The translations under genes were made by a program, and so were the position numbers. A stretch of DNA of 64,000 nt from Sulfurimonas sp. HSL1-2 (lineage in GTDB: Bacteria > Campylobacterota > Campylobacteria > Campylobacterales > Sulfurimonadaceae). Shown here piece by piece: positions 16,196 to 37,193 of this stretch. Location: contig NZ_CP147914.1 of the NCBI RefSeq assembly GCF_039645565.1, positions 124,001-188,000 on the forward strand. The letters are read 5' to 3'. The notes under the pieces were generated by a model, which was given only the letters and a program-made list of their open reading frames with translations, was not told the origin of the DNA and searched no databases. Each line of letters begins with the position of its first letter. Position 1 is the first letter of the stretch.

Positions 16196-16253
16196 GTGGT
16201 GCGGACGAGAGGACTTGAACCTCCACACCTTTTGGGCACCAGATCCTAAGTCT
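16196..16253. other. attL: 58-bp copy of the 3' part of tRNA-Leu(UAG)
   Basis: Perfect 58-bp match to 37107-37164. It contains the CCA end, T-arm, variable arm and anticodon loop of tRNA-Leu(UAG), but the sequence then diverges into AT-rich island DNA, so no 5' half exists and it is not a functional tRNA. This is the duplicated attachment site left by integration. Confidence 0.95.
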
Positions 16254-16331: not shown

Positions 16332-16379
16332 TGATATCTTTTTCATGTTGATGCCTTCATTATCATTGGTTTTCAAATT

Positions 16380-16414
16380 TTGTAGTAAAAACTGTAGTAA
16401 AAAAATATTTTTTT
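16380..16414 (+). repeat. Putative integrase arm-type repeats, left end
   Basis: Two adjacent TGTAGTAAAAA copies followed by A/T tracts. A very similar arrangement occurs just inside the right end of the island (37024-37056), in the same orientation. Arm-binding sites of tyrosine integrases typically flank attachment sites in this way. Confidence 0.5.
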
Positions 16415-16482
16415 CATTACAAAGTATTGTTACAATCTTTCAAGAGAGAAAGATAAAAAAAACATTCATAAGAGAGTTGTTC

Positions 16483-17631
16483 ATGGCTATGAAACCTGCC
16501 GGTGGGAAGTACAATGGAGTATGGATCAATGAGCTCAAAAATGGTGACGTTTCATACTACATCAACTACCGCGATGAGCATGGGAAGCCGAAAAAGGTTC
16601 AGGTAGGTAAAAAAACCAAAACATCCGACTTTACAGTGAAAGACGCTTTCGCAAAACTCATCGAAATGAAATATCGACTTCAACATGACGAAGAACCGGT
16701 GCTCAAGGGTGGAAGAGTTGCCAAGATTAAGCTCGATGATTTGTGGGAAAAGTATTTCAGTTATGCCAAGGCCAATAAAAAATCCTATCTCATAGACAAA
16801 CAGAATTATTATAAGCATATCAAACCCAGATTCGGTCATAAAAATGTAAAAGGGTTGAGCTCTTTGGAGTTTGAAAAGTTCAAGCAGGATCTCATGGCCA
16901 AAGGCCTGGAGGCTCAAACTGTCAAACACCAGTTGACCTTGATCCGAACAATCATCAATTTTGCGATCAAACACAATGTTCTCAAAAACTTCACCAACCC
17001 CATCGGAGGCGGAAAAGTGAAAATGCCTGACATCGACAATAAACGTCAGGCATATCTGACTAAAGAACAGGCTAGAGAAATTCTGGAGGTTTTGAAAGCG
17101 ACGCATCCGCTTACATATCATTTGACCGTGTTATTGCTTTTTACCGGGGCCCGTTTCAGCGAGATTACGGGTGCTTCGGCACAGAAGAACAAAACAGGCA
17201 TGGATACTCGATTGAAGTGGCATGACGTCAATTTTGAAAACAACACCATCTATTTCAAAAAGACGAAGAATGGGAATGATCGCCATATCGCAATGAATGG
17301 GATCCTCAGAGAGACTATGGACTATCTCTATGCAAATAGGTTTGATGATAATGTCATATGCAATAGCAATGGTGGAATTGTTTTGAGAATGCCGGACTAT
17401 TTTTTGGCTGCGGTGGAAATTGTGATTCCAGGGAATAGAAACAGAGAAAATAAATACAAAATCACCGCCCATTCATTACGGCATACACATGCAAGTTGGC
17501 TGGCGGAAGCGGGACTGGACATTTTGCAAATCAAAGAACAACTTGGGCACAAAAACATTGAGATGACAATGCGCTATGCACATCTTATCCCAAATGTAAG
17601 ACATCAGGTGACAAAGGTATTATTCTCCTAG
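16483..17631 (+). CDS. Tyrosine recombinase (island integrase)
   Basis: 382 aa from the ATG at 16483; the open frame extends upstream to 16345 but through AT-rich leader, and MAMKPAGGKYNGVW is a typical phage-integrase N-terminus. Domains in order: arm-binding N-terminal domain (about 1-75), SAM-like core-binding domain (about 85-175), catalytic domain (about 195-382). The catalytic residues are visible: Arg in LFTGARFSEITG, Lys in KKTKNGNDRHI, HSLRHTHASWL (HxxR plus second His), LGHKNIEMTMRYAH with the His and nucleophile Tyr. Placed 230 bp from attL, it most likely catalysed insertion into tRNA-Leu. Confidence 0.95.
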   Translation: MAMKPAGGKYNGVWINELKNGDVSYYINYRDEHGKPKKVQVGKKTKTSDFTVKDAFAKLIEMKYRLQHDEEPVLKGGRVAKIKLDDLWEKYFSYAKANKKSYLIDKQNYYKHIKPRFGHKNVKGLSSLEFEKFKQDLMAKGLEAQTVKHQLTLIRTIINFAIKHNVLKNFTNPIGGGKVKMPDIDNKRQAYLTKEQAREILEVLKATHPLTYHLTVLLLFTGARFSEITGASAQKNKTGMDTRLKWHDVNFENNTIYFKKTKNGNDRHIAMNGILRETMDYLYANRFDDNVICNSNGGIVLRMPDYFLAAVEIVIPGNRNRENKYKITAHSLRHTHASWLAEAGLDILQIKEQLGHKNIEMTMRYAHLIPNVRHQVTKVLFS

Positions 17632-20598: not shown

Positions 20599-21044
20599 GT
20601 GACTTTCCTGAATAGAAAATGAGCGTCACATTAACATAATAGGATCCTTCGAGCTTCTATCATTACATATTGATATGAAGCATAGTGTCACTGCAACAGA
20701 GAGGAATTCTTACCTTTTAATGTTCATTTATGAAGAATATATATTTACGAAAAAAAGTGCGACTAATACGTGAAAATTCAAGAAGTTATTGCAAATATGA
20801 CCCTTAAAAAGTAAATATAAAAAACCGTGGCCACATCCGCCAATACGGACAACCGGATCTGTATGGCTAGCAACACGTCATACTATTTTTTGCCACTTAA
20901 AACACTATGATAAAAGTCTTGTTCGTCAAAGTGAAGATGGGAAATCAAGCACAATCTAGTTACCTAATGACAAACATGAAACTTGGCCTATTGGATATTT
21001 AATAAATATTTTTTAGATATACTATATATATCTAAAGGATATTC
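20599..21044. other. Non-coding interval upstream of the parA-like gene
   Basis: AT-rich, no supportable gene. It holds a hairpin at 20839-20867 (GCCAATACGGA against TCTGTATGGC) and, at its end, the palindromic operator candidate described separately. It may contain the promoter of the parA-led operon or a centromere-like site. Confidence 0.4.
21012..21036. promoter_or_regulatory. Putative ParA/RHH operator
   Basis: Perfect 10-bp inverted repeat TTTAGATATA/TATATCTAAA with a 5-bp spacer, overlapping the ribosome binding site of the parA-like gene. The half-site TTTTAGATAT recurs at 21706-21715, just before the next gene. This fits autoregulation by the ribbon-helix-helix-like second gene product. 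Confidence 0.5.
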
Positions 21045-21689
21045 TTGATTCTTACACTTTCTCACCAAAAAGGCGGCGTTGGAAAGTCGACTATCGCCTG
21101 GAACCTGGCATTGGAATTCTCAAAGTTCTTACCCGTTACAGTCATCGATTTGGATATGCAGCGTTCCATGAGTGCTGCAAATAGGATTCGTACTGACAAG
21201 GGTATGGCACCTCTTGATATCTGTCATTTTGGAGATGCTGACGAGTTTGTTCACTATATCGAAAAAGATCATGAGGGTCGTCTCACTATCATCGATTCTG
21301 GCGGGTTCGACAGTTCATTCAACCGAATAGCCATTATGGCGTCAGATGTCCTCTTGACTCCAGTATCCGACAAGCCATTCGATCTTTTAGGACTACAGAA
21401 ATATGAAGAGATATTGGAAGCGTTGTCGGGCTTTCAAGAAAAGACCATTAAAACGCACGTTGTGTTAAATAACTTGAACCCTGCTCTCAGAAATTTTGGT
21501 GATGTTATGGAGTTTGTATTGATGTCGGAATACTTTGAACTCATGACGTCGGTATTGAGGCAGCGAGTGGATTTTTCTAACTCTGTTGGTGTAGGGAAAA
21601 GTGTCATAGAACATGCTCCTCAGGGCAGGGCGGCTCTGGAGATGAAAGCGTTGTGTAAAGAGATAGGTGAGATATTAAATATATTATAA
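21045..21689 (+). CDS. ParA/MinD-like ATPase
   Basis: 214 aa; start TTG 21045 with AAGGAT upstream. Deviant Walker A HQKGGVGKST near residue 7, VIDLDMQRS (Walker A' region) and IIDSGGFDS (Walker B). It is short like ParA proteins of type Ib partition cassettes that lack an N-terminal HTH. Such ATPases segregate plasmids or position cargo on the nucleoid. It heads a run of six same-strand, tightly spaced genes that continue into the restriction system. A stabilisation role for the excised island is inferred. Confidence 0.85.
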   Translation: MILTLSHQKGGVGKSTIAWNLALEFSKFLPVTVIDLDMQRSMSAANRIRTDKGMAPLDICHFGDADEFVHYIEKDHEGRLTIIDSGGFDSSFNRIAIMASDVLLTPVSDKPFDLLGLQKYEEILEALSGFQEKTIKTHVVLNNLNPALRNFGDVMEFVLMSEYFELMTSVLRQRVDFSNSVGVGKSVIEHAPQGRAALEMKALCKEIGEILNIL

Positions 21690-21726
21690 ATATATAAAAG
21701 ATATATTTTAGATATGAAAAGGATTC

Positions 21727-21951
21727 TTGATGGCAAAAAAAGATTTTCTGAAAAATATTGAAAAAGTCAAAAGCTCTGCAGCAATGAGCGAGCAGAATAG
21801 TAGTAAAGTAATATCGAAAGAGAAGAAGAAAAAGCTGATTACAATCCCGGTTGAATGGGAGGATAAGATCAAAGCATTTCATGGAGGTACGGTCAGTGCC
21901 TACATCCTCATTGCACTGCAGGAACGCATGCATAAAGATGGTTTGATCTGA
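21727..21951 (+). CDS. Small ribbon-helix-helix-like (ParG-type) protein
   Basis: 74 aa. The basic, disordered N-terminal half is Lys/Ser-rich. The C-terminal half (KLITIPVEWEDKIKAFHGG-TVSAYILIALQERM) has the strand-helix-helix pattern of ribbon-helix-helix DNA-binding proteins such as ParG or Arc. Position directly after a parA-like gene fits the centromere-binding partner of a type Ib cassette. The stop overlaps the start of the PLD gene (TGATG). Confidence 0.65.
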   Translation: MMAKKDFLKNIEKVKSSAAMSEQNSSKVISKEKKKKLITIPVEWEDKIKAFHGGTVSAYILIALQERMHKDGLI

Positions 21952-23504
21952 TGCAGATCATTGCCGACAACGTCAAGCTGAGAGAGAAGCTGGTCTCTTT
22001 GATAGATGAGTGTGATCGGATACAAATTGCTTCCGCCTGGGCCAGTGCCGGGAATATCGTAGTTGATGCCCTCCTTCAAAATAAAGAAAAAATACAAAAG
22101 CTCATTGTAGGGACACATTTCTTTCAGACAGATCCGAAATTTTTGGCAGCTTTCGAGGGTTTTGAAAAAGCCAGAGTCAGAATGCATGAAGGCGCCGTTT
22201 TCCATCCTAAAATCTACTATTTCGATATGGGTAACAATGGCTGGGAATGCCTGATTGGGAGTGCCAATTTGACCAATGCAGCCATGGGTAATAATGACGA
22301 GATTATGGTACTTGTCAGTGATTCAGATGCAGATGCATCGACTGCACAGCTTGATATTTGGAAAGTGATGGGAGAATGGGAAAAAAACGCCAAAAAGATA
22401 GATAATGAGTTCATCAACTTTTACACAAAGCTTTACAAGGCCAAAAGCCAGGCATTGCAAAGTGTTGCGACTCCACTGCCACCAAAGGATTCAGAACGTA
22501 CATTTGACAGTGAGATTTTTTCTTTGACCTGGGAGGAGTTCTTCAATGAGATCCAGGAATTTACGATTTTTGAGAAGGGCACCATCATAGATAGAGATGC
22601 GGTATTAAGCAAGGCTCATCAGCTGTTTAGTACACATCAGAATTTCGCACAAATGGGTGAACTCGACAGGAAAAAGATCGGTGGGTTTTATGAGAGGATT
22701 GAAGACGGGTTGGACTGGCGGTGGTTCGGAAGCATGAAAGGGAGCGGAGACTTCAAAAAACAGATAAACGATAACAATCCTCATATATCAAGTGCTTTGG
22801 ACCTGATACCCAACGATGGAACCGTTACACGGGAAGACTATCTCGCTTATATCGATGAATTTTCCAAGTCGTTCACGGAAGAGCAGAACAGGCTTGCTAC
22901 GTCCACGAGACTGCTGACCATGAAGCGTCCTGACTATTTCATGTGCGTGGATTCGCAGAACAAAAGGCAGTTGTGCCGGGATTTTGGGATCATCGAGCGT
23001 GAGCTGAACATAGACACCTATTGGGACCTGATTACAGCGCAAATCATCAACTGTGCGTGGTGGAGCCAGGATCCATCTGTGCTTACTGGGTTGCAGCGGT
23101 CCGTATGGAATGGCAGGGCCGCATTTTTAGATGCATTGTATTATCAGAATATAGTACGTTCCAACGCGAAGCCTTTTTTACAAAGCAATTATCCCGAATT
23201 GCTGCGACATAAACTGTGTTCTAGCCGAAAATGGGAAGAAGAGGGAGACTTGGGAAATTGGTGGTTCAAGTTCTCCGAAGACGACCTCAAGAGTTATGAG
23301 TATATTGTACTCGCGGGTGCCCTGGATGATTCCAACCATGCTTTCAAACTATTCAAAATCCCGACACAATACATAATAGACCACCTTGACAAATTAGATT
23401 GTAACGCAGAAGGGCGTATGATAAATATCTATTTATCGATCGAAGACCATATCGACTTGCGTAATGACTATCATTTGAGCTTCAAAGAATTTTGTATCAA
23501 CTAG
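21951..23504 (+). CDS. PLD-like (HKD) putative nuclease with large C-terminal domain
   Basis: 517 aa. Residues about 1-165 form a phospholipase D-like domain: FHPKIYYFD near residue 83 gives the H-x-K of the HKD motif, followed by [18 protein letters not shown]. One HKD copy is present, so an active site would need a dimer, as in Nuc or BfiI. Residues about 190-517 form a separate domain I do not recognise, rich in aromatic residues ([24 protein letters not shown]). Coupled to the preceding gene by TGATG and 7 bp from hsdM, so it belongs to the restriction operon. PLD-fold endonucleases exist among restriction enzymes, and a DNA-cutting role is inferred. Confidence 0.75.
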
Positions 23505-23511
23505 GATAATT

Positions 23512-25098
23512 ATGAGTTTCAAAAACATTCAGGAACTGGAAAAACGACTTTGGGATGCGGCCGATGAACTTCGGGCCAATTCCGACCTGACGTCGCAGGA
23601 GTATTCGCGTCCGGTGCTGGGGCTGATCTTCCTGCGCTATGCGGAGTACCGTTTCGAAATGGCGAAGGCGAGGATCGAAGAGAAGCAGAGTTCCCGCAGA
23701 CGTGGTGGCGATATCAAGACGGCCATCCAGGCGGAGGGGGCGATGTATGTCCCTGAGGGAGCACTATACTCGAAATTGTTGGAGCTGCCTGACGGTGCCG
23801 ATGTCGGCAAGGCGATCAACGATGCCATGAAGGCGCTGGAAGCGGAGAACGAGGCGATCAAGGATACCCTGCCGAAGACCTTTACGAAGTTCGACGGCGA
23901 TACACTCTCCGGACTGCTGAAGAACTTCGCGGCGATCCGTTTCGACATTGGTTCCGACGTCTTCGGTCGGATCTACGAGTACTTCCTGACCCAGTTCGCC
24001 CGGGCCGAGGGGCAGGGCGGCGGCGAGTTCTTCACGCCGAGCCCGCTGGTCCGTCTGATCTCGGAGATCATCGAGCCTTACAGCGGCAAGGTGTACGACC
24101 CGGCGTGCGGATCGGGCGGCATGTTCGTCCAGAGTGCGGCGTTCGTGCGGGAGCACAACAAAACGGCGACTTCCGAGCTCTCCATCTTCGGCGAGGAAAA
24201 GACAGGCGATACGGTACGCCTGGCGAAGATGAACCTCGCGGTGCACGGTCTCGAAGGGGACATCAAAAACGGCAACTCCTACTATGAAGACATCCACGAC
24301 AGCGTCGGCAAGTTTGACTTCGTCATGGCCAATCCCCCGTTCAACGTTGACAAGATCCAGAAGGAGCGCCTCGAAGACAGCAAGGCCCGCTTCCCGTTCG
24401 GGATGCCGCGGGTGGATAACGGCAACTACATTTGGATCCAGATGTTCTACTCGGCGCTCAACGCTAAAGGTCGTGCCGGCTTCGTCATGGCCAACTCAGC
24501 CAGTGATGCCCGCGGCTCCGAGATGGAGATCCGCCGCGAGATCATCCAAAGCGGTGCCGTCGACGTCATGGTGGCGATCAGTTCCAACTTCTTCTACACG
24601 GTAACTCTACCTAGCACACTTTGGTTCTTCGACAAAGGCAAGCCTGAAAGTCGCAAGGACAAAGTGCTCTTCATTGATGCTCGCCACATCTACACCCAGG
24701 TCACCCGGGCCGTGCGCGACTACTCCAGCGAACAGCTCAATTTCGTTGCCAATATTGTACGGCTCTACCGGGGCGAAATGGTAGACGACACTTTCCTGGC
24801 AACCCACCCCGACGAGCGAAACAGTGGTGATTGGAGCATCGAGAAATTCTTCCCGGATGGCACTTATCAGGACATCGCTGGACTCTGTAAAGTTGCGACA
24901 ACTGAGGAGATCGAAGAGCAGGGATGGAGCCTCAATCCCGGACGATATGTCGGCGTTGCCGAAGGGGAGGAAGAGGATGAAGAGGAGTTCCGCATCAAGC
25001 TTGAAGAGCTGCAGGAGGAGCTGGAGATTCTGAACGGTGAAGCGCATGAGCTTAAAAAGATCATTGCTCAGAATGTTGCAGAAGTGTTAGGATACTAA
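23512..25098 (+). CDS. hsdM: Type I restriction-modification methyltransferase subunit
   Basis: 528 aa. HsdM N-terminal helical domain (about 1-160), then the N6-adenine methyltransferase domain: [18 protein letters not shown]-binding [14 protein letters not shown] near residue 196, and catalytic NPPF in [13 protein letters not shown] near residue 280. The C-terminal coiled coil ([24 protein letters not shown]) contacts HsdS. It methylates adenine in the bipartite target set by HsdS. Base composition is clearly GC-richer than the neighbouring island genes, hinting at a different origin. Confidence 0.96.
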
Positions 25099-25101
25099 TA
25101 A

Positions 25102-26331
25102 GTGAAAGTGTCAACTACGTTAGGTGAGCACATCACGACACAAAAAGGGTTCGCTTTTAAAAGTAAATGGTATGTCACAGAGGGGCAACCCATCGTTAAG
25201 GTTAGTGATTTTACTTCGGACTCCATTGATCCAAGGAATCTAATTTGTATACCAAAAGAGCTAGCACGGGAATATTCCAAATATCAGCTTCAACAAAATG
25301 ACATTATTATTCAAACTGTTGGCTCTTGGCCAAGCAATCCAGCATCTGTTGTAGGTAAAACGATACGTGTACCAAGAAGTACTAATGGGGCACTCCTTAA
25401 TCAAAATGCTGTTAAAGTCATCCCAAACAAGACTATAGACCAAACATATCTATTTTACTTGTTAAGAAACAACGATTTTAAAGATTATATAGTCGGTACT
25501 GCACAAGGGGCAGCAAGCCAAGCCAGTATTACATTGGATTCAATTCGTTCATTTAAATTCGACTTGCCACATTTGGATAAGCAACGGAAAATCGCTTCCA
25601 TCCTCTCCACCTACGACGACCTGATCGAAAACAACAACCGTCGCATCGCCATCCTCGAAGAGATGGCCCGAAGACTCTACCGCGAATGGTTTGTCAAATT
25701 CCGCTTTCCGGGGCATGAAGCGATCAAGATGGTTGACTCGGAGCTTGGGAAGATCCCGGAAGGGTGGGAGGTTGTTAAACTTTTTGACATCGCAGCTCCA
25801 ACATATGGTTTTGCATTTAAATCTAAGCTATTCACCGATGATGGGAATGGAATCCCCGTTGTACGTATTAGAGATATTCCGAAGGGGTTGTCAAATACGT
25901 TTACCCAGGAACATCCAAAAAAAGAAGATCAAATTCTTCAAAATGGCGATTTGCTTATTGGTATGGATGGTGATTTTCACATGGGGAAATGGTCCGGAGG
26001 TCATGCGTACTTGAATCAGCGAGTAGTTAAGATTACTCCGTTTGATAATTATTCGAAATACTTTGTTTTTCTCTCGTTCCAAAAACCTATTTTGGATCTG
26101 AACAAATCGATTGTAGGTACTACGGTTGCCCATTTGGGAGATAAACATTTAAAAGAAATCAAGATAATTTTGCCAGAAGAAGGAAGTCGGAAACAAGCGG
26201 AAAGGTTGTTAGATGCATTGTTCGACAAAGAAATTAATCTAAAGCTTAGGAATCGGAATCTTCAAAAGCAACGAAATATGCTACTACCGAAACTTATCTC
26301 GGGAAAGATTAACCTTCTATATGGCAAATAG
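25102..26331 (+). CDS. hsdS: Type I restriction-modification specificity subunit
   Basis: 409 aa; GTG start 3 bp after hsdM. Two target-recognition domains (about 1-155 and 220-355) alternate with conserved helical spacers: HLDKQRKIASILSTYDDLIENNNRRIAILEEMARRLYREWFVKF in the centre, given here only as its position (about 154-200), and a second at the C-terminus. The central spacer is GC-rich whereas both recognition domains are AT-rich, the pattern left by domain swapping. Overlaps the next gene by 11 bp. Confidence 0.94.
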   Translation: MKVSTTLGEHITTQKGFAFKSKWYVTEGQPIVKVSDFTSDSIDPRNLICIPKELAREYSKYQLQQNDIIIQTVGSWPSNPASVVGKTIRVPRSTNGALLNQNAVKVIPNKTIDQTYLFYLLRNNDFKDYIVGTAQGAASQASITLDSIRSFKFDLPHLDKQRKIASILSTYDDLIENNNRRIAILEEMARRLYREWFVKFRFPGHEAIKMVDSELGKIPEGWEVVKLFDIAAPTYGFAFKSKLFTDDGNGIPVVRIRDIPKGLSNTFTQEHPKKEDQILQNGDLLIGMDGDFHMGKWSGGHAYLNQRVVKITPFDNYSKYFVFLSFQKPILDLNKSIVGTTVAHLGDKHLKEIKIILPEEGSRKQAERLLDALFDKEINLKLRNRNLQKQRNMLLPKLISGKINLLYGK

Positions 26332-27427
26332 AAAAAACCAGCATTTCGTTCCACAATATTATTTTCGTTATTTTTCAAAAGGACAATCAAGCATAAATGT
26401 CCTGCTTAAAGATAGTGGAAAAATCATTGAAAATGCACCAATCAAAGGCCAATGTTCAAAAAACAATTTTTACGGATCTGTTGAAATTGAAAGCCTATTT
26501 TCAAAAATTGAGGGACGACACAGTGCAGTTTTAAAAAAAATTCAATCAATTAACTCAAAAAAAGAATTTATTGAATATGCCACTATGTGCGATGAAGCCC
26601 CAGAACTTGGATTGAATCCAGATTTGCTTGAATTACTGCAAGCAATTATGTTTCAAAAATCAAGAACGGAGTTTGAAGCGAAAAAACATAGTGAGATGTT
26701 TGGGCAAGTAATTAAAGAAGTATTTTTAAAGGATATGGAACTACAAGTAAACGATGAAATTCTCAAATATAAAGAATTTCTAGATATATCGACGGATTTA
26801 ACAGATACAGTTCTGATGACACTAGAAATTGCCACAAAAAGAACAGCATTGATCTCAGACTTAGGAATTTATATTCTGAAAAACAAAACATCTACAGAAT
26901 TTATTTTTAGTGATGCACCAGTAGTTATTTATAATAAGTATTATCAAAATGTTCACTTACGTGGCGTTCTTGGGTTACAATCTCCTGGATTAATGATTTT
27001 TTATCCTATTACGCCTGATACATGTATTTTATTATTAGACGAAGCTGTTTATCACGGAGCCAGTAACTTTGTTGAGATCACAAATACTCACGACATTGCG
27101 AGTATCAACAAGTTGCAGTTGCATCATAGTTTGAATGCAATCTATTTTTCGGAAAATGTCAGCCCTAAATATATTAGAAAACTATGGAAGCAACAGCGAC
27201 ATAGTTTTAGAACAGATAAGATGAAGGTTGTAGTTGCTTCGGCTTTAGATCATAAAGGGAATGATATGGGAGAAGTTATGCATTCATATGAACCCCAGAT
27301 ACCGTATTCACTAAATTTGTCATTCATCACATCCGAAGTGCGAGGTGATAAAGATTATGATAACTCGTACAGAAACCCGGAGTTAATTGCTGAAGTCGAG
27401 AAGGAAATAAAACCTTCTCAACAATAG
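26321..27427 (+). CDS. DUF4238 family protein
   Basis: 368 aa; the start overlaps the hsdS end by 11 bp, so it is part of the restriction operon. The N-terminal NQHFVPQYYFRYF is the hallmark of DUF4238, followed by a helical region and a mid-protein strand region (FIFSDAPVVIYN, FYPITPDTCILL). The biochemical activity of DUF4238 is not known to me; members occur scattered in bacterial accessory regions. Very AT-rich compared with hsdM. Confidence 0.8.
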   Translation: MANRKNQHFVPQYYFRYFSKGQSSINVLLKDSGKIIENAPIKGQCSKNNFYGSVEIESLFSKIEGRHSAVLKKIQSINSKKEFIEYATMCDEAPELGLNPDLLELLQAIMFQKSRTEFEAKKHSEMFGQVIKEVFLKDMELQVNDEILKYKEFLDISTDLTDTVLMTLEIATKRTALISDLGIYILKNKTSTEFIFSDAPVVIYNKYYQNVHLRGVLGLQSPGLMIFYPITPDTCILLLDEAVYHGASNFVEITNTHDIASINKLQLHHSLNAIYFSENVSPKYIRKLWKQQRHSFRTDKMKVVVASALDHKGNDMGEVMHSYEPQIPYSLNLSFITSEVRGDKDYDNSYRNPELIAEVEKEIKPSQQ

Positions 27428-27429: not shown

Positions 27430-27564
27430 CTATTTTCGCCCTTTACGGGTTTGACTCAGAGCACTGCCGGCAAGAGACTTGCATGATTTGCTGGCAGAAC
27501 CACTTTTGAGCACCTTAGCAGCTTTGGAAGCAACACTCTTAGAGGTCTGTTTCTTATTAGGCAT
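27430..27564 (-). CDS. 44-aa basic Lys/Ser/Ala-rich small protein
   Basis: Start ATG 27564, chosen for the AGGAG 5-6 bp upstream. The sequence (MPNKKQTSKSVASKAAKVL...SLAGSALSQTRKGRK) matches a widespread family of about 40-residue proteins with the SK-SVASKA and SLA-SALSQ patterns, found in many bacteria and phages, function unknown. The stop lies 3 bp past the convergent DUF4238 gene. Confidence 0.65.
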   Translation of the reverse strand: MPNKKQTSKSVASKAAKVLKSGSASKSCKSLAGSALSQTRKGRK

Positions 27565-27650
27565 CTTTTCTCCTTTCATAGGTATTTGACTTTTTTCGTT
27601 TAACGTCTGAACCCGGCAGTCATAGCCATCAAGCGACATTGATTTGAAGT

Positions 27651-27965
27651 TTATTCGTAGATAAACCTGTCCAAAAAACTGAGCAGATATAGCAAATAAA
27701 AAATGACTGCAGTCAGAATCAATGCAACCAGAAAATAGTATTCATTTGCCACCAGGTACCAACCAAGTGCTGCTACAGGCAAGACAATCAGTTTGGCAGA
27801 TAGGTCCAACAGCTTGTTTCTTTCTCGATAAGTGTCTGACAGATCAAAACGAAAAATGAATATGACGATACCAATACCGATTGCCAGCAAGAGATACGGC
27901 CATGAAAATTCGACCGCGGTTGATGCCGCAGTCTGAAATGCATGTTTTAAATCCAACATTTTCAT
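27651..27965 (-). CDS. Small membrane protein
   Basis: 104 aa, three predicted transmembrane helices (about 20-38, 57-73, 76-98). Two possible starts: ATG 27965, or ATG 27959, which has the better-spaced AAAGGA. Divergent from the XRE-ImmA gene across a palindromic operator region, so it may be controlled by that regulator. No family recognised. Confidence 0.5.
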   Translation of the reverse strand: MKMLDLKHAFQTAASTAVEFSWPYLLLAIGIGIVIFIFRFDLSDTYRERNKLLDLSAKLIVLPVAALGWYLVANEYYFLVALILTAVIFYLLYLLSFLDRFIYE

Positions 27966-28023: not shown

Positions 28024-28100
28024 AGTATAAATGAAGAGTAAAAAATTTACAATGTGGCCATAATTGGTTTGTTTTGTAAACTTAGTATGAGGAGGTGCTT

Positions 28101-29165
28101 ATGTTGGCCCAACGCATAGAACGTGCGCGTAAGACTTCCGGATTGTCGTTACGCGATTTGGCAGCAAAAGTTGGTGTAAGCCAGACAGCTATCAACAAAT
28201 TTGAGAAAGGGACTTTAACTCCCGACTCAACAATGTTGATCAAACTCGCAAAAGCCCTGAATGTGAAAGTCGGATATTTTCTGCGTTCAACGACACTGGA
28301 ACTTGAAAAACCGGAATACCGTAAAAAGAGTACGCTTTCTGCAAAAAAACTGCAGATGATAGAGGGAAAAATCCTTGATTTGATTGAACGTCGGATGGAG
28401 CTTGAATCACTTTTTCCGAAGCCGCCGGTCCAGGAATTTGTCATCCCTAGTAATTTGCCAGAGCAAGTTACATCGATGGATGAAATTGAAGAAGTGGCAA
28501 AGTCGGTACGAGAACAGTGGCAACTGGGGTTAAACCCGATTCCGGAACTCGTGGATGTGCTTGAAAGCAAGGGGGTCCGTGTATTTGAAATAGGGGAAAG
28601 CGCTGATAGCAAATTTGACGGTTTGGCCGCCAAAGTGAATGGTCAGCGTGTCATTGTAATCTCTAGTAATTGGTCCGGTGACCGTCAGCGGTTCACCATG
28701 GCACATGAGCTCGGACACCTTATCCTTGAAGGACGTCTTATCGATGAACTGGATGAAGAGCTTGCTTGCCACCGTTTTGCAGGAGCATTCTTGCTGCCGG
28801 AAGATGCAATCTGGTCTGAACTTGGCGAATTTCGAACCCGACTGGAGCTCCAGGAATTGCTGATGCTCAAACAGGAGTTCGGTATCAGTATGTCCGGGAT
28901 CCTGTATCGTGCAAAAGATCTTGGAATCATCAAGCAGAGCTATCATAAACAGTTGATGATTGAGTTCTCGAAGCGGCGCTGGCGTAAAAATGAGCCTCAA
29001 CCATATCCGGCAGAAAAACCGCACCATTTCAAGCAATTGGTATTTCATGCTTTGGCCGAAGAATATATCGGGGAATCAAAAGCTGCGGATTTGATGGATA
29101 TGAGTGTCCATAAATTTTATCAATTACGAATGATTGAGGATGGGCATGCAGCTTCTGATCAGTGA
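28101..29165 (+). CDS. XRE-type regulator with ImmA/IrrE metallopeptidase domain
   Basis: 354 aa from the ATG at 28101 (strong GAGGAGG; an in-frame GTG at 28095 overlaps it). Residues about 4-60 form an XRE helix-turn-helix (LSLRDLAAKVGVSQTAINKFEKG). The middle is the COG2856/DUF955 domain with the zinc-peptidase motif AHELGHLILEG near residue 200 and the downstream glutamate region DEELACHRFAGAFLLPED. In phage and ICE systems such proteins cleave or displace repressors. A C-terminal extension (about 300-354) adds an HTH-like MSVHKFYQLR segment. Overlaps the next gene by 20 bp. Confidence 0.9.
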   Translation: MLAQRIERARKTSGLSLRDLAAKVGVSQTAINKFEKGTLTPDSTMLIKLAKALNVKVGYFLRSTTLELEKPEYRKKSTLSAKKLQMIEGKILDLIERRMELESLFPKPPVQEFVIPSNLPEQVTSMDEIEEVAKSVREQWQLGLNPIPELVDVLESKGVRVFEIGESADSKFDGLAAKVNGQRVIVISSNWSGDRQRFTMAHELGHLILEGRLIDELDEELACHRFAGAFLLPEDAIWSELGEFRTRLELQELLMLKQEFGISMSGILYRAKDLGIIKQSYHKQLMIEFSKRRWRKNEPQPYPAEKPHHFKQLVFHALAEEYIGESKAADLMDMSVHKFYQLRMIEDGHAASDQ

Positions 29166-29640
29166 TACAAATATTATCATTGATCTCGATGTGTGCGGGC
29201 TCATCGAAAAGATGTTTGACCTCTCATATGCGTTTGCAGTGCCTGATGTACTGTACATTGAAGAGCTTGAGGAGCAGCACGGAGAGTTGCCTGCCTATGG
29301 GTTATTGATCAAATCGCTTGAATCAGAAAAAGTCGATTATGCTGTTGCGCTTCAGGCCAAGCATATAGAAACCAGCCCAAATGATCTGTTTGCCCTTGCT
29401 TTGGCGAAACAGGAAGAGTGCCCTCTTTTGACAGGGGACATGGCATTGCGTACTGTAGCTGCTGAAGAAGAAATTGAGATCAAAGGGACACTCTGGATTG
29501 TAGAACAAATGGTTGTTCAGGGTATCATTGGCATTGATCGTGCCGAGGGAGCATTTGAGGATATGAAAATGAAGCAGCGCAGGTTACCTTGGAAAGAAGT
29601 TGAGCGAATGCTTGAACGGCTCAGGGATAAATTGGAATAG
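29146..29640 (+). CDS. PIN-like domain protein (putative RNase partner)
   Basis: 164 aa; start ATG 29146 with TTGAGGA upstream. LLISDTNIIIDLD at the N-terminus gives the first PIN acidic residue, and SPNDLFALALAKQEECPLLTGDMALRTVA supplies the conserved Asp pair typical of PIN nucleases such as VapC or DUF3368. Overlapping expression with an XRE-ImmA protein suggests a toxin-antitoxin-like or regulated nuclease pair. It ends 9 bp before hsdR, so all three may be cotranscribed. Confidence 0.75.
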   Translation: MQLLISDTNIIIDLDVCGLIEKMFDLSYAFAVPDVLYIEELEEQHGELPAYGLLIKSLESEKVDYAVALQAKHIETSPNDLFALALAKQEECPLLTGDMALRTVAAEEEIEIKGTLWIVEQMVVQGIIGIDRAEGAFEDMKMKQRRLPWKEVERMLERLRDKLE

Positions 29641-29649: not shown

Positions 29650-32600
29650 ATGAGCTATAGTGAGGACGCTTTAGTAGAACAACCTGCCATTCAATTCTTT
29701 GAGGGAATGGATTGGGAAAGCTGCCACTGCTATGATGAAACTTTTGGTCTGGAAGGAACTCTTGGTCGAGAGGACCGTTCGAAAGTTTTCCTATTCGGTC
29801 GTCTTTATGAAGCTATCGAGAAACTAAATCCCGGACTTGAGAACCATGTCATTCAAGAAGCAATAGAAGAACTGACGCGCGATCGATCTTCCATGAGCGT
29901 TATTGCTGCAAACGAAGAGGTCTACGATTTTATTAAAGATGGCGTCAAAATCAATATCATTGACGAGGACAGCGAGGACACAGTAACCGTAAAAATCATT
30001 GACTGGGACGTTCCGAAAAACAACAACTTCCTTCTCACATCGCAGCTATGGATTACCGGGGAAGTTGAAACTCGGCGAATGGACCTGGTCGGATTCGTGA
30101 ATGGCCTCCCGCTCGTTTTCATTGAACTCAAAACCTCGCACCGGAAACTCATTAACGCATACAAAGACAACCTCAAGGACTACCGCTCAACTATCCCCCA
30201 GCTTTTCTGGTACAACCAGCTGATCATCCTTTCAAACGGCATCCAGTCCCGGGTAGGAACGATCTCAAGCGGCTGGGAGCATTTCGCCGAATGGAAAAAG
30301 GTTGAAAGTGAAAAAGAAGAGCGTCGCGTCAGCCTAGAAGTAATGCTGCGCGGTACCTGCGACAAAACCCGCCTGCTGGATATCATCGAGAATTTCATTC
30401 TTTATATCCGAAAAAAAGAGACGGTGAAGATCGTTGCCAAGTATCACCAGTACCTCGGAGTCAACGAAGCGCTCGCAGGAGTGCGGCATATCAAGGAACT
30501 CGAAGGCAAGCTAGGGGTCTACTGGCATACCCAGGGGAGCGGCAAAAGCTTTTCCATGATCTTCTTCTCGAAAAAGATCTTCCGAAAAATACCGGGGAAC
30601 TGGACGTTCGTCTTGATCACTGACCGTACCGATCTGGACGACCAGATATATAAGGGTTTTCAGGCTGCAGGGGTTTTGATACAGGAGTGCCAGGCGGAGT
30701 CTGGCGATGATCTGAAACAACTCCTGAAAGAAGACCATCGGTATGTCTTCACACTGATACAGAAGTTCGGTACAAAGGGTGGAGAGACCTTCCCGGAACT
30801 CTCCGATCGTGATGATGTCATTGTCATTACGGATGAAGCACACCGAAGCCAGTATGCATCGTTGGCAATGAACATGCGCAAGGCATTGCCGAATGCCGCC
30901 TTTATCGCCTTTACCGGAACGCCGTTGCTTGCCGGTGAAGAGAAGACGAAAGAGGTCTTTGGCGACTATGTCAGTATCTACAATTTCTCCGATGCCGTTG
31001 AGGATAAAGCAACGCTGCCACTTTATTATGAAAACCGGGTACCGGAGGTCAATCTCAACCGAGAGGATCTCGGCGAGGAGATCGTCGATATCCTCGACCA
31101 GGCGGATCTTACCGACGAGCAGGAGGCAAAACTTGAGCGCGAGTTTGCCAATGCCTACCACATCATCACCCGCGAGGAACGGCTTGATACCATCGCAGAC
31201 GATATCGTCGAGCACTATATGGGGCGCGAGTTCATGGGCAAGGCTATGGTTGTTTCGATTGATAAGGCAACGGCTATCCGAATGTATGACAAAGTGCAGA
31301 AAGCCTGGAAACACAAACTGGGGCGACTGAAGGTGAAGTCCCGCGTGATGTACGGTTCCAAACTGGCAAAGATCAAAGAAGACATAGCCTATATGGAGCG
31401 AACCGATATGGCCGTTGTCGTCTCCGGAGGCCAGAACGAATACGAGCGTCTTGCTGCGAAGGGAATCGACCTAAGACCCCATCGGGAGCGGATGCAGCGA
31501 GAGAGGCTGGACGAAAAGTTTAAAGACCCCGACGATCCGCTGAACATCGTGTTCGTTTGTGCCATGTGGCTGACCGGATTCGATGCCCCGTTCACGTCCA
31601 CGCTCTACCTAGATAAACCGTTGAAAAACCATACGTTGATGCAGACCATCGCACGGGCCAACCGGGTCTATCCGGGCAAGCCAAACGGACAGGTCGTGGA
31701 CTATATCAATATCTTTGGAGCACTGCAGGAAGCACTGGGACGATACGGCCACGGTGTCAAGGAGCCTTCAACCGGATACGGCGAAGAATCTGATACACCG
31801 GCGCAGGATAAAACCGTACTGTTGCATGCCCTTGAAAATGCTATTTTTGAGCTGCAAAAGTATTTGCGTGAACGTAAAATCGATCTTGATGAGATTATCA
31901 CTGCGAATACGGATGACTTTGTGAAGCTCCGACTGCTTGATGAAGCAAGTGAAATCCTTCTTGAACCGGCCAACGAAGATGAGTTCACTTCCTATGTGAG
32001 ACAGATAAACCGGATATTCAAAGGCATCCTTCCTGATACGCGAGCCGATATCTACGTGCGGCAGCGTGTTGCGATAAACGTCATTTATCGTCAGATGAAG
32101 ATCAAGAGTGGCGAAGACATCGATGACGAGGATGTACTGCAGGTGATCCGCAACCAGGTCAACGAGTTACTGGATGAATCCATAGAAACTGTAGCAATTG
32201 AATCCCACCTCCCTGAACCTGTCGACATCTCCAATATTGATTTTGAAGCATTGGCGAAGATGCTGGATCGTATCGAAAAGCCGAAGACATCAGATGCCGA
32301 TAAACTGAAAAACCTTATTGCCCGAAAGCTGCCAAATATGGTAAAGCGCAACAAGCTTCGTCAGCAACTGCAGGAAAAGTTCCAGGAACTGGTGGATCAA
32401 TACAATCTGGGAGCATACACGACCGAAGAGTTCTTTGAGAAACTCAAACAGTTTATCCGTGATGAACTAGATCCGGAAGAAAAACGTGCAATGCGTGAAG
32501 GACTTAGTGAAGCTGAGCTGGCGATATTCGACCTTCTGGTGTCGGAAGTTCATCTGAGCGAGAAAGAGCGCAACGACATTAAACGTATTGCGAAGGATCT

Positions 32601-32799
32601 GCTCGAAAAACTCAAAGAAACACTGGTGATTGACTGGCGTAAAAAGCAGCGCTCCAAAGCACAGGTGAAACGTGTAATTGAGGATGTTCTGGATGAATTA
32701 CCAGCAAGTTATGATGATACGATTTGGCCACATTCTGTGGAGTTGGTTTATCAGCATGTCTTTGATGCCTATAGTGGTCGAGAACAGAGCGTTTACTGA
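29650..32799 (+). CDS. hsdR: Type I restriction-modification endonuclease/translocase subunit
   Basis: 1049 aa, normal for HsdR. The N-terminal PD-(D/E)xK nuclease domain shows DLVGFVNGLPLVFIELK near residue 150. The SF2 motor follows: Walker A WHTQGSGKS near residue 300, VIVITDEAHRSQ (motif II, DEAH), AFTGTPL (motif III), and TGFDAPFTSTLYLDKPL with IARANRVYPGK for later motifs. The C-terminal helical domain (about 800-1049) docks on the M2S core. It cuts foreign DNA after translocation. It is separated from hsdMS by 3.3 kb holding the XRE-ImmA/PIN pair. Confidence 0.96.
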   Translation: MSYSEDALVEQPAIQFFEGMDWESCHCYDETFGLEGTLGREDRSKVFLFGRLYEAIEKLNPGLENHVIQEAIEELTRDRSSMSVIAANEEVYDFIKDGVKINIIDEDSEDTVTVKIIDWDVPKNNNFLLTSQLWITGEVETRRMDLVGFVNGLPLVFIELKTSHRKLINAYKDNLKDYRSTIPQLFWYNQLIILSNGIQSRVGTISSGWEHFAEWKKVESEKEERRVSLEVMLRGTCDKTRLLDIIENFILYIRKKETVKIVAKYHQYLGVNEALAGVRHIKELEGKLGVYWHTQGSGKSFSMIFFSKKIFRKIPGNWTFVLITDRTDLDDQIYKGFQAAGVLIQECQAESGDDLKQLLKEDHRYVFTLIQKFGTKGGETFPELSDRDDVIVITDEAHRSQYASLAMNMRKALPNAAFIAFTGTPLLAGEEKTKEVFGDYVSIYNFSDAVEDKATLPLYYENRVPEVNLNREDLGEEIVDILDQADLTDEQEAKLEREFANAYHIITREERLDTIADDIVEHYMGREFMGKAMVVSIDKATAIRMYDKVQKAWKHKLGRLKVKSRVMYGSKLAKIKEDIAYMERTDMAVVVSGGQNEYERLAAKGIDLRPHRERMQRERLDEKFKDPDDPLNIVFVCAMWLTGFDAPFTSTLYLDKPLKNHTLMQTIARANRVYPGKPNGQVVDYINIFGALQEALGRYGHGVKEPSTGYGEESDTPAQDKTVLLHALENAIFELQKYLRERKIDLDEIITANTDDFVKLRLLDEASEILLEPANEDEFTSYVRQINRIFKGILPDTRADIYVRQRVAINVIYRQMKIKSGEDIDDEDVLQVIRNQVNELLDESIETVAIESHLPEPVDISNIDFEALAKMLDRIEKPKTSDADKLKNLIARKLPNMVKRNKLRQQLQEKFQELVDQYNLGAYTTEEFFEKLKQFIRDELDPEEKRAMREGLSEAELAIFDLLVSEVHLSEKERNDIKRIAKDLLEKLKETLVIDWRKKQRSKAQVKRVIEDVLDELPASYDDTIWPHSVELVYQHVFDAYSGREQSVY

Positions 32800-32816: not shown

Positions 32817-33536
32817 ATGCAGTACTATTCAGGTGATTGGAAGCTTGGTATCAAAAGCAAATCACATAGGGCAGAATTTTCTCCTAACCCGGATGACAGA
32901 AAAAAGTCTGAAGTCAAATATCATGAATATGCCAGACGTCTCAAAGAAGAAATGAATCAGGAGATGGCTTATCGAGTTGAGATAAACAAAATAAGGCATC
33001 AATATGGCCTTGAGCCTTTCCTCGACCAAGAAACTTTTAATGAATTAATTGATGATTGTGATTTAAAAGGTGAAGCCTTATGGCATTATCTATGTGAATA
33101 TGATGGGGAACCACCTAAAAATAGTATTGAGAAGCCCAGGCACTCATTAGAAGTGATGATTGCGCAAAATCTTCCAGTCGTTTCCAGTGAAGCATTGGTT
33201 GAATACCTTGATCTTGATCATAAAGATTTTATTGAAGCCATACAACTTTTACATAATGCAGAGGTGTTTTACATTGAGTATCTCACGATCGAGACTTTTC
33301 ACGAATGCTTTCGACCTATTCCCATAAAAGGAACTAATGCATTCTATATTACATATGCAAGTCTATTGGTTCTAGCTGCAGTGAGAGCATATTCTGGACA
33401 TATAACAAGAGAGTGCTTTGAACTACTCGATATGATGGAAGTTCGTTATCAAGAGCATAAAAGTATGAACGAATTTTATGGTTATTTTAGGAGTATTCAC
33501 GAGGACATAGAATTTTATGTCAATGGTTTTCGTTGA
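32817..33536 (+). CDS. Hypothetical protein, possible Rha-like regulator
   Basis: 239 aa; start ATG with AGGGGGGAG upstream, 17 bp after hsdR, so likely the last gene of that operon. The N-terminal half is charged. The C-terminal half (LPVVSSEALVEYLDLDHKDFIEAIQLL... TYASLLVLAAVRA) has the layout of phage Rha/antirepressor DNA-binding domains (short 'VSSrEiAe' helix-turn-helix, then conserved aromatic core). The resemblance is weak and unverified. Confidence 0.45.
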   Translation: MQYYSGDWKLGIKSKSHRAEFSPNPDDRKKSEVKYHEYARRLKEEMNQEMAYRVEINKIRHQYGLEPFLDQETFNELIDDCDLKGEALWHYLCEYDGEPPKNSIEKPRHSLEVMIAQNLPVVSSEALVEYLDLDHKDFIEAIQLLHNAEVFYIEYLTIETFHECFRPIPIKGTNAFYITYASLLVLAAVRAYSGHITRECFELLDMMEVRYQEHKSMNEFYGYFRSIHEDIEFYVNGFR

Positions 33537-33625: not shown

Positions 33626-34618
33626 CTACCCTCCTAAATAGTGTTCAGTGATACTGGCCCTGTTGTGTTTCATCTCACTGCTCACTTGTTGAAGGGAATC
33701 GGTATACGAGTAGCCAGCCAGCGCGTATTCAAACATTCTTCGTTTTGCGAAATTCCAGCGAAACCCATGTGAGCCCTCTGCATTTTCATGTGCGATAGTG
33801 GATGCCCGTATGATGTCATCCCAGTATTGTTGACGATTGATTTTGAAAGAGCTGTTGATTCGCATGTAATCTTCAAGTAAACGGTATGTACTGATATCGA
33901 TCAGTACATCTCCCTCTTTTCCACCTTTTTCTCGCGTGAAAATAATCCCTTTTTCAGTACCGGTAATCGGATCCAATCTTGTACCATGAAGCTGGGCTGA
34001 TTTTATAAGTGCGACCCCCTCGATTCTTGCCCCTCCTTCATACTGGATACGAGCTGCTAATTGATGTTGTGGATCTGACAATGAATTGATGAGTGCTTCT
34101 GGATCAGAATAGGCACGGTGGTGATAATTGTCGGCGACAAAATTTAAATCCCTCGCTTCATCCAGGATATATTGTCGAATAGAAAAATCATAGGCTCTTT
34201 CTTCGTTGTGAATATTCCGTGAGAATAGCTTCAGAGCAACCTCAAGTTTTCCTAGCGCAGAGCATATCTTTTCCAGGTATTGTTTGGATGGGTAATATTC
34301 AATTTTATAGTCCATGTATGCGGCAACATGTTCAGATGAAACCTGCTCAAAATCTTTTATGCCCCAGTGTTCTTTGAGATAATTAAAGAAGTTGTTCCAG
34401 ATATTTCGATAGCTTTCCATGGTTTTATAGGAAGCAACTTTTTGAAAATCAGGATGTTCAGGGTTTATACGTTCTTCTTTCTTTGCGCCGGATCTGAATA
34501 TCTGCTTTGCGAGTTGTGCGCTTTGATAATAGACACTTCCCCGCATGGGAACTCCCTTTTTTATTTTGATAGTTTCAGCCGCTATCTTCGGCAAATATAC
34601 TGTTAAGTCAATCTGCAT
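33626..34618 (-). CDS. Second, divergent tyrosine recombinase
   Basis: 330 aa from 34618, or 306 aa from the ATG at 34546, which has a better ribosome binding site (AAGGGAG). An N-terminal core-binding region (about 60-150) precedes a catalytic domain with Arg in YEGGARIEGVAL near residue 200, Lys in EKGGKEG, HGFRWNFAKRR (HxxR), and EMKHNRASITEHYLG (His and Tyr nucleophile). The family is unlike the attL-proximal integrase. It may act in excision, in a different recombination reaction, or be a relic of an older element. Confidence 0.8.
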   Translation of the reverse strand: MQIDLTVYLPKIAAETIKIKKGVPMRGSVYYQSAQLAKQIFRSGAKKEERINPEHPDFQKVASYKTMESYRNIWNNFFNYLKEHWGIKDFEQVSSEHVAAYMDYKIEYYPSKQYLEKICSALGKLEVALKLFSRNIHNEERAYDFSIRQYILDEARDLNFVADNYHHRAYSDPEALINSLSDPQHQLAARIQYEGGARIEGVALIKSAQLHGTRLDPITGTEKGIIFTREKGGKEGDVLIDISTYRLLEDYMRINSSFKINRQQYWDDIIRASTIAHENAEGSHGFRWNFAKRRMFEYALAGYSYTDSLQQVSSEMKHNRASITEHYLGG

Positions 34619-34973: not shown

Positions 34974-35447
34974 TTAAGTCTCCAGGTATGGCATTTCTAA
35001 AAAGTTGCAACGGTCGATTTCTTTATTGATTCCTTGCGGGGTAAATGTGTATTCATACTCAAAGAGTCTTGAAAAAGAATAGCCCATAAAGGACATAGTG
35101 AAAAGCTTGTACATTGCTTTGGCTTCTGATCTTGAAATGAAAATATTTTTGTTGTCGACATTAAGTTTTAGGTTCTTTGAGTTTTTGTGTTGCGACACGG
35201 TGAAATATTTGTTTTGGTCATTCCCGAGCTCGAACATTTTCAGCTCTTCCATCAAATGAATAGTATCGGATAGTTTGGTTGTGATGAGTCTTTTACCTGC
35301 AATAATTGTGGCGCCTCGTAAGTACTGTTTATTCGTAGCATAAACAACTTGAAAAGCCTGGAGCAGGTAAATGCCTTTGTCCCCATTAAGTTCAATAGGG
35401 CGCAGCTGCATTATTGACTCGGGACCTACATATGTTGATTCATCCAT
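34974..35447 (-). CDS. Hypothetical protein, third gene of a three-gene operon
   Basis: 157 aa, start 35447, overlapping the upstream gene by 8 bp. Beta-rich and soluble; no membrane segment or recognisable motif. Translational overlap with two DNA-binding-type genes suggests it acts with them. Confidence 0.5.
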   Translation of the reverse strand: MDESTYVGPESIMQLRPIELNGDKGIYLLQAFQVVYATNKQYLRGATIIAGKRLITTKLSDTIHLMEELKMFELGNDQNKYFTVSQHKNSKNLKLNVDNKNIFISRSEAKAMYKLFTMSFMGYSFSRLFEYEYTFTPQGINKEIDRCNFLEMPYLET

Positions 35448-35895
35448 GTTCTACATCCTTTTTATCGTTTTCAATGGATTCCCATACTGAGTGAATTGTG
35501 CTGTATGACACATCCAACTTGTGGTATTTGAATAAGTATTTGCTGATATCCCGGAAGCTCATGCCCTTTTCAATTTTGAGCTTTCTGACAATTGCCCAGT
35601 AGCCAAGAAGCTTTTCTCGTTTCAACTGAGGTTTATGATTCTTTCCTCGGATGTGAATGACATTTATATCAAGTTTATCCAGCGAAGTCGTTGTTGCGTG
35701 AATTGCCAAAATAAATGTTGCAAGAGTTAAAACGGATTTATCGACGTTGTAGTGCAGGCCTTTGAGTTTGTGGAAAAGTTGTCTCTGCTGCACAAAAATA
35801 CTTAGTCTCGTATCTGTATCAGCACGCGCAAAAAAGCGAAGTTGCTGATTCTGTATTTCCGGAGACAAAGTCGTTATTCTTTCTATTGACTCCAT
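35440..35895 (-). CDS. Hypothetical protein with C-terminal HTH
   Basis: 151 aa. The C-terminal part (LGYWAIVRKLKIEKGMSFRDISKYLFKYHKLDVSYSTIHSVW region, about 95-140) reads as a helix-turn-helix of the type found in site-specific DNA-binding or replication proteins. The N-terminal part is helical. The first base of its start codon is the last base of the upstream gene's stop. Confidence 0.55.
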   Translation of the reverse strand: MESIERITTLSPEIQNQQLRFFARADTDTRLSIFVQQRQLFHKLKGLHYNVDKSVLTLATFILAIHATTTSLDKLDINVIHIRGKNHKPQLKREKLLGYWAIVRKLKIEKGMSFRDISKYLFKYHKLDVSYSTIHSVWESIENDKKDVEHG

Positions 35896-36149
35896 TACTT
35901 TGTTCCTTCTGTTTCAATCAGCCATTTGGCTATATCCGTCAGCTTCCACATACGCCTCTTGTTGATGGTTGTCCAAGGGGGAATGATCTTTTTCACTAAG
36001 ATCAATTTTTCCGGAAGGGCGTTTTTGCCACCAAATAATTTAGATAGTGATGAGTAACTACTTCCCCATTCATAGGGTGCCTCTTTCGAGTTCAACATCC
36101 ACTTTTTATGCTTTTGATACATGAATTCAACAAGTTCTTTTTCGGTCAT
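35895..36149 (-). CDS. Small winged-helix protein (excisionase/AlpA-like)
   Basis: 84 aa with an excellent AAGGAGG 5 bp before the ATG at 36149. The segment LVKKIIPPWTTINKRRMWKLTDIAKWLIE resembles the MerR-type winged helix of excisionases and AlpA regulators. It is first of three overlapping minus-strand genes that precede the second recombinase, so directionality factor or island regulator is a reasonable inference. Confidence 0.6.
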   Translation of the reverse strand: MTEKELVEFMYQKHKKWMLNSKEAPYEWGSSYSSLSKLFGGKNALPEKLILVKKIIPPWTTINKRRMWKLTDIAKWLIETEGTK

Positions 36150-37106: not shown

Positions 37107-37164
37107 GTGGTGCGGACGAGAGGACTTGAACCTCCACACCTTTTGGGCACCAGATCCTAAGTCT
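37107..37164. other. attR: 58-bp direct repeat inside intact tRNA-Leu(UAG)
   Basis: Identical to 16196-16253. The repeat runs from the CCA end through the anticodon loop and stops in the anticodon stem. To the right the tRNA continues normally, so the gene stays intact after integration. Confidence 0.95.
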
Positions 37165-37193
37165 GGCGTGTCTACCAATTCCACCACGTCCGC
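37108..37193 (-). tRNA. tRNA-Leu (anticodon UAG), island target
   Basis: 86 nt with encoded CCA. Acceptor stem GCGGACG/CGTCCGC; anticodon stem and loop AGACTTAGGATCT gives TAG; the long variable arm (TGCCCAAAAGG) is typical for Leu. It is the last gene of a five-tRNA operon and carries attR in its 3' part. Confidence 0.97.

Follow-up and report, generated by a model that had tools for sequence, protein, structure and literature searches.

Genes of the island at tRNA-Leu(TAG)

The window is a 64,000-nt stretch of the Sulfurimonas sp. HSL1-2 genome (NZ_CP147914.1, positions 124,001 to 188,000; coordinates below are window positions). Six of its genes, all on the plus strand, encode a ParA-type ATPase, a 73-aa candidate ribbon–helix–helix (RHH) protein, a PLD-fold nuclease, the type I subunits HsdM and HsdS, and a DUF4238 protein (Table 1). 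The row lies inside a 20.9-kb integrative element at tRNA-Leu(TAG), as follows from the att repeat, the integrase at the border and its absence from this site in same-genus genomes. We read the locus as a composite defence island carried by this element, whose borders can be seen here.

The island was missing from the tRNA-Leu(TAG) site in all three same-genus genomes compared (G006, G007 and G004). G006 has ≈2.4 kb between the gene left of the island (88–97% identical) and the tRNA cluster, and G007 has 1.5 kb; the G004 site is occupied by a different element, ≈7 kb long, whose 64-nt repeat matches at 98% (L316, 3430–10641). GC content is ≈0.36–0.53 over 16.2–37.2 kb, with the peak at hsdM, versus ≈0.53–0.65 in most of the flanks. 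A relative of the integrase, 75% identical, was found in G041, in a stretch that also has tRNA-Leu(TAG) and hsd genes. The second recombinase has relatives in the G068 and G144 stretches; relatives of the first two small core genes adjoin it in G144, and relatives of the last two occur in G068. An Rfam search over 16000–37800 returned tRNAs and nothing else.

The original prediction had described six same-strand genes with close spacings, all of which were recovered in our reading of the open reading frames (ORFs) and their junctions: a 37-bp gap between the ParA and RHH genes (40 bp counted to the RHH ATG), a TGATG overlap between the RHH and PLD genes, gaps of 7 bp (PLD–hsdM) and 3 bp (hsdM–hsdS), and an 11-bp overlap of hsdS with the DUF4238 gene. 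Of the bounds it gave, 21012–27427, the end stands, whereas the start moves to the TTG of parA at 21045, since 21012 lies upstream of that gene. Its labels for ParA, PLD, HsdM, HsdS and DUF4238 were supported by Pfam, which returned no match for the RHH protein. HsdR fell outside those bounds. Its gene starts 2.2 kb past the DUF4238 gene, after two minus-strand ORFs and then a pair encoding a helix–turn–helix (HTH)–ImmA protein and a PIN protein, and makes the type I set of HsdM, HsdS and HsdR complete in the locus. The minus-strand ORF pair stands as a divider between the two plus-strand gene rows of the island. The 239-aa gene behind hsdR had no match in Pfam, PADLOC, NCBIfam or PHROG.

Table 1. 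Features of the element and their positions in the window.
Feature	Position	Strand	Details
attL, left copy of 58-nt att repeat	16196–16253		Exact direct repeat of 37107–37164
Tyrosine integrase	16345–17631	+	PHROG integrase E 4.7e-63; start 92 bp from left att copy
AT-rich inverted repeat, candidate operator/parS	21005–21043		Before parA; 17-nt arms, 88%
ParA-type ATPase, 214 aa	21045–21689	+	TTG start; Walker A KGGVGKST at residues 9–16; Pfam CbiA/AAA_31
ParG-like RHH candidate, 73 aa, putative centromere-binding protein/repressor	21730–21951	+	ATG 21730; ORF also from 21727
PLD-fold nuclease, 517 aa	21951–23504	+	Pfam PLDc_2, RE_NgoFVII
HsdM, type I methyltransferase	23512–25098	+	N6_Mtase E 2.5e-81, HsdM_N E 4.2e-20
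HsdS, specificity subunit	25102–26331	+	Methylase_S E 1e-32, two stretches
DUF4238 protein	26321–27427	+	PF14022 125.7 bits vs. cut-off 27
Two small ORFs	27430–27965	−	Lysine-rich (69 aa) and, judged by eye, membrane-like (104 aa)
HTH + ImmA/IrrE peptidase, RmrA-like antitoxin/regulator	28095–29165	+	PADLOC RmrA E 1e-57
PIN-domain protein, candidate toxin	29134–29640	+	PIN E 5.7e-4, DUF3368 1.4e-4, both below cut-offs
HsdR, restriction/translocation subunit	29650–32799	+	HSDR_N, SWI2_SNF2, T1RH-like_C; TIGR00348 525.8 bits vs. cut-off 284.55
239-aa gene	32817–33536		Begins 17 bp after hsdR
Second tyrosine-recombinase-like gene, element core	33626–34618	−	PHROG integrase E 1.3e-6
Three small core genes	34974–35447, 35440–35895, 35895–36149	−
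Right att copy, 3' part of tRNA-Leu(TAG)	37107–37164		tRNA at 37108–37193

The partition cassette and the restriction genes behind it

By homology, ParA and the 73-aa protein form a type Ib (ParF/ParG-like) partition cassette, which would be expected to act in partition. ParA is small, of the Walker type and without an N-terminal HTH, as is the rule for type Ib, and its closest solved relatives by sequence are 5u1g (ParA) and 4dzz (ParF). Its best plasmid matches were from Campylobacterota. It is 38–47% identical to the ParAs of the seven Campylobacterota plasmids read, where the gene after parA encodes ParB in four cases and a small protein in three. The 73-aa protein is 48% and 40% identical to the post-parA proteins of Nitratiruptor and Nitrosophilus plasmids, respectively, near a rep gene; on the Nitrosophilus plasmid, an endonuclease gene follows the cassette and a methyltransferase gene comes two genes on. 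The protein is also 68–84% identical to 14 aligned sister proteins, and it matched PHROG 19714 (unknown function, E 1.1e-5) and, weakly, the NikA (E 0.74) and Arc (E 1.1) profiles. It is a candidate RHH protein on the strength of its position, the plasmid homology and these weak profile matches. AT-rich repeats precede parA and sit in the parA–RHH gap, both in the window and in sister cassettes, and a 12-base box upstream scored better than shuffles (p ≤ 0.05) in 19 of the 25 cassettes, but not in that of the window.

Relatives of ParA were sought in 296 genomes of the phylum and 200 of the family. Outside genus g14, eight loci including the window had a ParA at ≥57% identity, and all eight had the RHH gene. 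In four of them (window, G394, G070 and G296), a restriction–modification (RM) gene on the same strand directly followed RHH or came one gene later. The RHH gene is followed by hsdM, hsdS and later hsdR in G394; by hsdM, a gene for a reverse transcriptase and one for a GHKL ATPase, with hsdR further on, in G070; and by an MmeI-type enzyme on the same strand, then Avs4 (1712 bits), in G296 (L173, 990–8230). The HsdM of G394 is 77% identical to that of G070 and 28% identical to that of the window, so that the RM cargo behind the cassette comprises two type I families and one MmeI type. Because the G394 and window HsdMs are this distant, the junction between partition and RM genes probably arose more than once.

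The other loci carried different neighbours. In G112 (L178, 405–8022), a DruE3-like helicase (680 bits) and an unmatched 901-aa partner, a Druantia-like pair, diverge from ParA–RHH; in G012 (L271, 1530–3761), a reverse transcriptase–Cas1 fusion lies upstream; and three neighbours in G021 had no match. In G068, ParA (64%) and RHH stand beside tRNA-Leu(TAG), relatives of three island core genes and an unmatched 526-aa gene, and no hsd gene was called and no RM system found in that stretch. Since the cassette occurs there with the tRNA and core-gene relatives but without hsd, it appears to go with elements; among the eight loci, element borders were located in the window alone. Among more distant ParAs, G043 (41%) has a divergent hsdM adjoining parA by tRNA-Leu(TAG), and G055 (39%) has hsd genes within the stretch. 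In the ParA tree, G070, G394, G296 and G068 formed one group (support 98/98) with short branches and differing cargo, and the window was a longer, separate branch. That such closely related ParAs carry different cargo shows that cargo is exchanged.

As a control, we used ParA–ParB cassettes with ParA called, of which 23 entered the hsd scan and 22 had genes after the cassette, and the g14 cassettes, of which 20 relatives were found and 17 read (L273–L287, L176 and L177), three near contig ends being left out. L299 was dropped for having no ParA called, and L294 and L273 for having no gene after the cassette; five of 14 plasmid records were left out as near-duplicates. The hsd scan found none in the next genes of the 23 ParA–ParB controls, one of which (L293) has hsdM and hsdS elsewhere in the stretch, and none after the 16 usable g14 cassettes. 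Library scans pooled the 105 genes read at the first one to three positions behind 38 cassettes (22 ParA–ParB and 16 g14); among the first 25 of 49 and the first 25 of 75 families, the matches included a SNF2 helicase (L288, first member) and methyltransferase models that matched one member each. A motif check found one control protein with SAM-binding and DPPY motifs, in g14 (locus L282) and encoded on the opposite strand to parA; this check would miss cytosine methyltransferases. For the ParA–ParB cassettes, the conservative control figure was kept at one methyltransferase in 22, and that of the hsd scan was zero. By Fisher's test, four of eight gave p = 0.011 against 1/22, and p = 0.034 with the window dropped (3/7). 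Against 0/23, the values were 0.0022 (4/8), 0.0086 (3/7) and 0.037 (2/6, with G070 and G394 merged as well). These results are suggestive of a coupling beyond chance, but do not settle it. Relatives of the cassette head unrelated RM operons in other genomes, and the coupling may therefore go beyond accident.

Partition and addiction are two main ways in which mobile DNA maintains itself. The explanation that we favour, and consider probable, is that the operon of the partition cassette captured hsdM and hsdS, together with PLD and DUF4238 passengers, on the island, so that maintenance and RM share one RHH-repressed operon; ParA–RHH would then belong to the element and not to a nuclease system. 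The modification half of the RM system would have been captured in translational coupling, and a PLD nuclease of a mostly stand-alone family and the DUF4238 gene would have been taken along. The par promoter would drive the whole row as one transcript, and the RHH protein would bind the AT-rich repeat before parA and repress it. RHH and ParA would help to keep the circle formed if the element excises, and the RM genes would penalise cells that lose the element and also restrict phage. Upon entry into a new cell, where the repressor is absent, hsdM and hsdS would be expressed in a burst ahead of HsdR, which is encoded in a separate stretch. This agrees with one suggestion of the original prediction, that a partition module had been joined to a restriction operon in the island, which is now backed by the homology, the att borders and the similar junctions in other genomes.

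There are precedents for the single steps: type Ib centromere-binding proteins act as repressors (PMC5016525), omega sites overlap several promoters (PMC9499535), omega is described as a regulator of epsilon–zeta (PMC3874152), and stabilisation by partition genes is described for at least one family of integrative and conjugative elements (ICEs) (PMC4489591). By analogy with omega, which links partition and epsilon–zeta, partition and RM are likely to be under shared control by the RHH protein. A bolder proposal is that in Campylobacterota elements one RHH protein is both centromere binder and RM repressor, that methylation and restriction are derepressed when partition fails or when the element enters a new cell, and that the RM cargo is interchangeable; we put this forward tentatively and, as a whole, regard it as unlikely. 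If the partition repressor does time RM as well, this would answer how an incoming island with an RM system lacking a C protein methylates its host before cutting, and partition and addiction or defence would be a single regulated unit. One ParA–RHH family with swapped RM cargo would offer ready natural comparisons.

Several results weigh against the captured-operon explanation. Single-sequence AlphaFold2 modelling of the 73-aa protein followed by VIA-align gave no Z ≥2 for an RHH fold among six chains. The window's upstream repeat agreed with the 12-base sister box at 9 of 12 positions (p = 0.39), no better than shuffles, and a consensus scan for promoters and terminators was uninformative, with 24 promoter-like sites versus 17.7 expected. 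None of the island proteins scanned was recognised as the product of a replication or conjugation gene. All 17 g14 loci read have the RHH gene, and no hsd gene was called in any of their stretches; there, ParA–RHH is a chromosomal pair on its own, in similar surroundings across many genomes, and ten neighbour proteins scanned were ordinary cell proteins or had no match. ParA–RHH is therefore not always an element module. Finally, little remains of the recurrence of RM genes when the window is left out and the sisters G070 and G394 are merged (2/6 vs. 1/22, p = 0.11).

The same strict counting favours a chance neighbourhood, in which islands gather partition cassettes and RM systems alike, the junctions mark the points where cargo went in downstream of a convenient promoter, and the partition and RM genes have no influence on each other beyond readthrough. 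RM genes are common island cargo, and the cargo beside close ParAs varies from type I (G070 and G394) to MmeI with Avs4 (G296) to no RM found (G068). What speaks against chance is the count itself, with RM behind RHH in half of the eight loci as opposed to 0 to 1 of 22 ParA–ParB cassettes and no hsd after the 16 g14 cassettes, and the junctions, where stop and start codons abut between the RHH gene and hsdM in G394 (TAAATG) and G070 (TAGATG) and overlap behind RHH in the window. We consider a chance neighbourhood somewhat unlikely.

PLD nuclease, DUF4238 protein and neighbouring genes

Judged by its sequence, the PLD protein is a member of a mostly stand-alone family of ≈400-aa nucleases. It consists of conserved residues 1–400, over which the structural model is confident, and an orphan C-terminal part of 118 aa (23145–23504), which was poorly modelled, had no Pfam match and was found, in the loci compared, only in the window's own copies. 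Over about residues 1–150 to 1–175, the model matched PLD domains of restriction enzymes and nucleases: SauUSI (Z 18.2, rmsd 2.6, 156 aligned), NucT (Z 17.0, rmsd 2.3, 140 aligned), Nuc (Z 16.9, rmsd 2.4, 142 aligned), BfiI (Z 14.6, rmsd 3.1, 160 aligned) and NgoAVII (Z 12.8, rmsd 2.9, 146 aligned). H85, K87, S104, N106 and E117, which we take to have catalytic roles, are invariant or nearly so across the family.

The genome scan for PLD relatives covered one genome per species (84,980 species), and 91 loci were compared: the best 80 of 201 relatives, nine plasmid loci, G004 and G344. An hsd match was present in ten stretches, and in six the PLD and hsd genes shared a strand and were separated by no more than one gene on it (L013, L020, L054, where the PLD gene lies between hsdS and hsdM, L062, L088 and L090). 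Fifteen of the 296 phylum genomes matched the family profile, three of them, including the window, over nearly the whole length, and relatives occurred in 17 viral contigs, some as partial matches.

These data bear on the possibility that the PLD protein is an accessory nuclease of type I complexes, for example by cutting DNA that is stalled or translocated by HsdR or that escapes it, with ParA unrelated. The six close loci would fit, as would the predicted fold, which groups with the restriction-enzyme PLDs SauUSI, NgoAVII and BfiI, and the retention of H85, K87, S104 and N106. On the other hand, the remaining 81 of the 91 stretches, some of them short, had no hsd match, so that the protein can probably act alone, and the same intervals hold other genes in the relatives of hsdM. 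At 19 of 20 loci in the phylum with an HsdM 34–50% identical, mechanical ORF calling placed one or more further ORFs among the hsdM, hsdS and hsdR genes; the remaining locus is cut off at hsdM. Type I loci that contain passengers are nothing unusual in this phylum. We regard an accessory role of this kind as quite improbable.

In the same-genus genome G004, the type I locus L013 (3040–12067) carries a PLD relative together with an Abi_C protein, both placed between its hsdS and hsdR. DISARM was considered through its component DrmC and rejected: the PLD protein scored 24.3 bits versus a DrmC cut-off of 133, and neither DrmA nor DrmB was among the matches listed for the ten proteins scanned.

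DUF4238 gave six matches in five of 296 phylum genomes, the window's match included. No hsd gene was found near the other five (L215–L219) in a single-sequence search with the window's subunits, and a single query found no relatives in viral contigs. One DUF4238 protein is described as a single-gene antiphage system giving strong resistance to T7 (PMC9122126), and later defence surveys include the family (PMC11291487, PMC10855318, PMC12629846).

The original prediction had also proposed that ParA, PLD and DUF4238 form an undescribed defence layer on the type I core. Their tight same-strand spacing would be expected of such a multi-gene system, but the three were together in no other locus read. 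ParA occurred in one of the 91 PLD stretches, as a distant ParA ≈8 kb off; no PLD was called in the seven other ParA–RHH loci outside g14; no hsd was called in the five stretches around other DUF4238 genes; and the DUF4238 protein described in PMC9122126 acts alone. The co-occurrence that had been named as the test of this idea was thus absent from the loci read, and DUF4238 and PLD each occur alone; therefore, the three do not appear to be one system, and we find the idea very hard to credit. The captured-operon explanation accommodates PLD and DUF4238 as passengers.

Between hsdS and hsdR, the RmrA-like HTH–ImmA gene overlaps the PIN gene, forming a RosmerTA-like pair inside the type I locus. 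RmrA-type proteins are the antitoxins of RosmerTA defence (PMC10440598); no RmrT model matched the PIN partner.

Comparison with known systems

Among the paper titles and abstract openings listed, none described a partition cassette heading an RM operon, which is thin evidence of absence. Type Ib cassettes such as ParF–ParG of TP228 and delta–omega of pSM19035 (PMC5016525, PMC9499535) resemble that of the window in having a small ParA, a small (here candidate) RHH protein with a variable tail, and AT-rich repeats before the operon. They differ in that the window cassette, with its putative partition function, sits in an integrative element and runs straight into an RM operon. Like the omega protein of pSM19035 (PMC9499535, PMC3874152), the RHH protein could be a partition protein that also controls a stabilising addiction module, but in the window that role would fall to a type I RM system encoded in the same operon, under presumed control. 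The srpMRC genes of SXT/R391 ICEs are likewise partition genes on an integrative element (PMC4489591); that system, however, is of the actin type and the window cassette of the ParA type, and the proteins scanned here yielded no recognisable conjugation gene.

The locus shares with other type I RM loci that carry passengers, such as those of the hsdM relatives in the phylum, the three subunits with other genes between them, and is distinguished by the partition cassette at its head and the PLD gene before hsdM. The DUF4238 gene encodes a PF14022 domain protein like that of the single-gene antiphage system (PMC9122126), but overlaps hsdS, and its antiphage role is putative. Each part of the locus is of a known kind; the junction between partition cassette and RM operon is real, and such junctions recur with other RM types.

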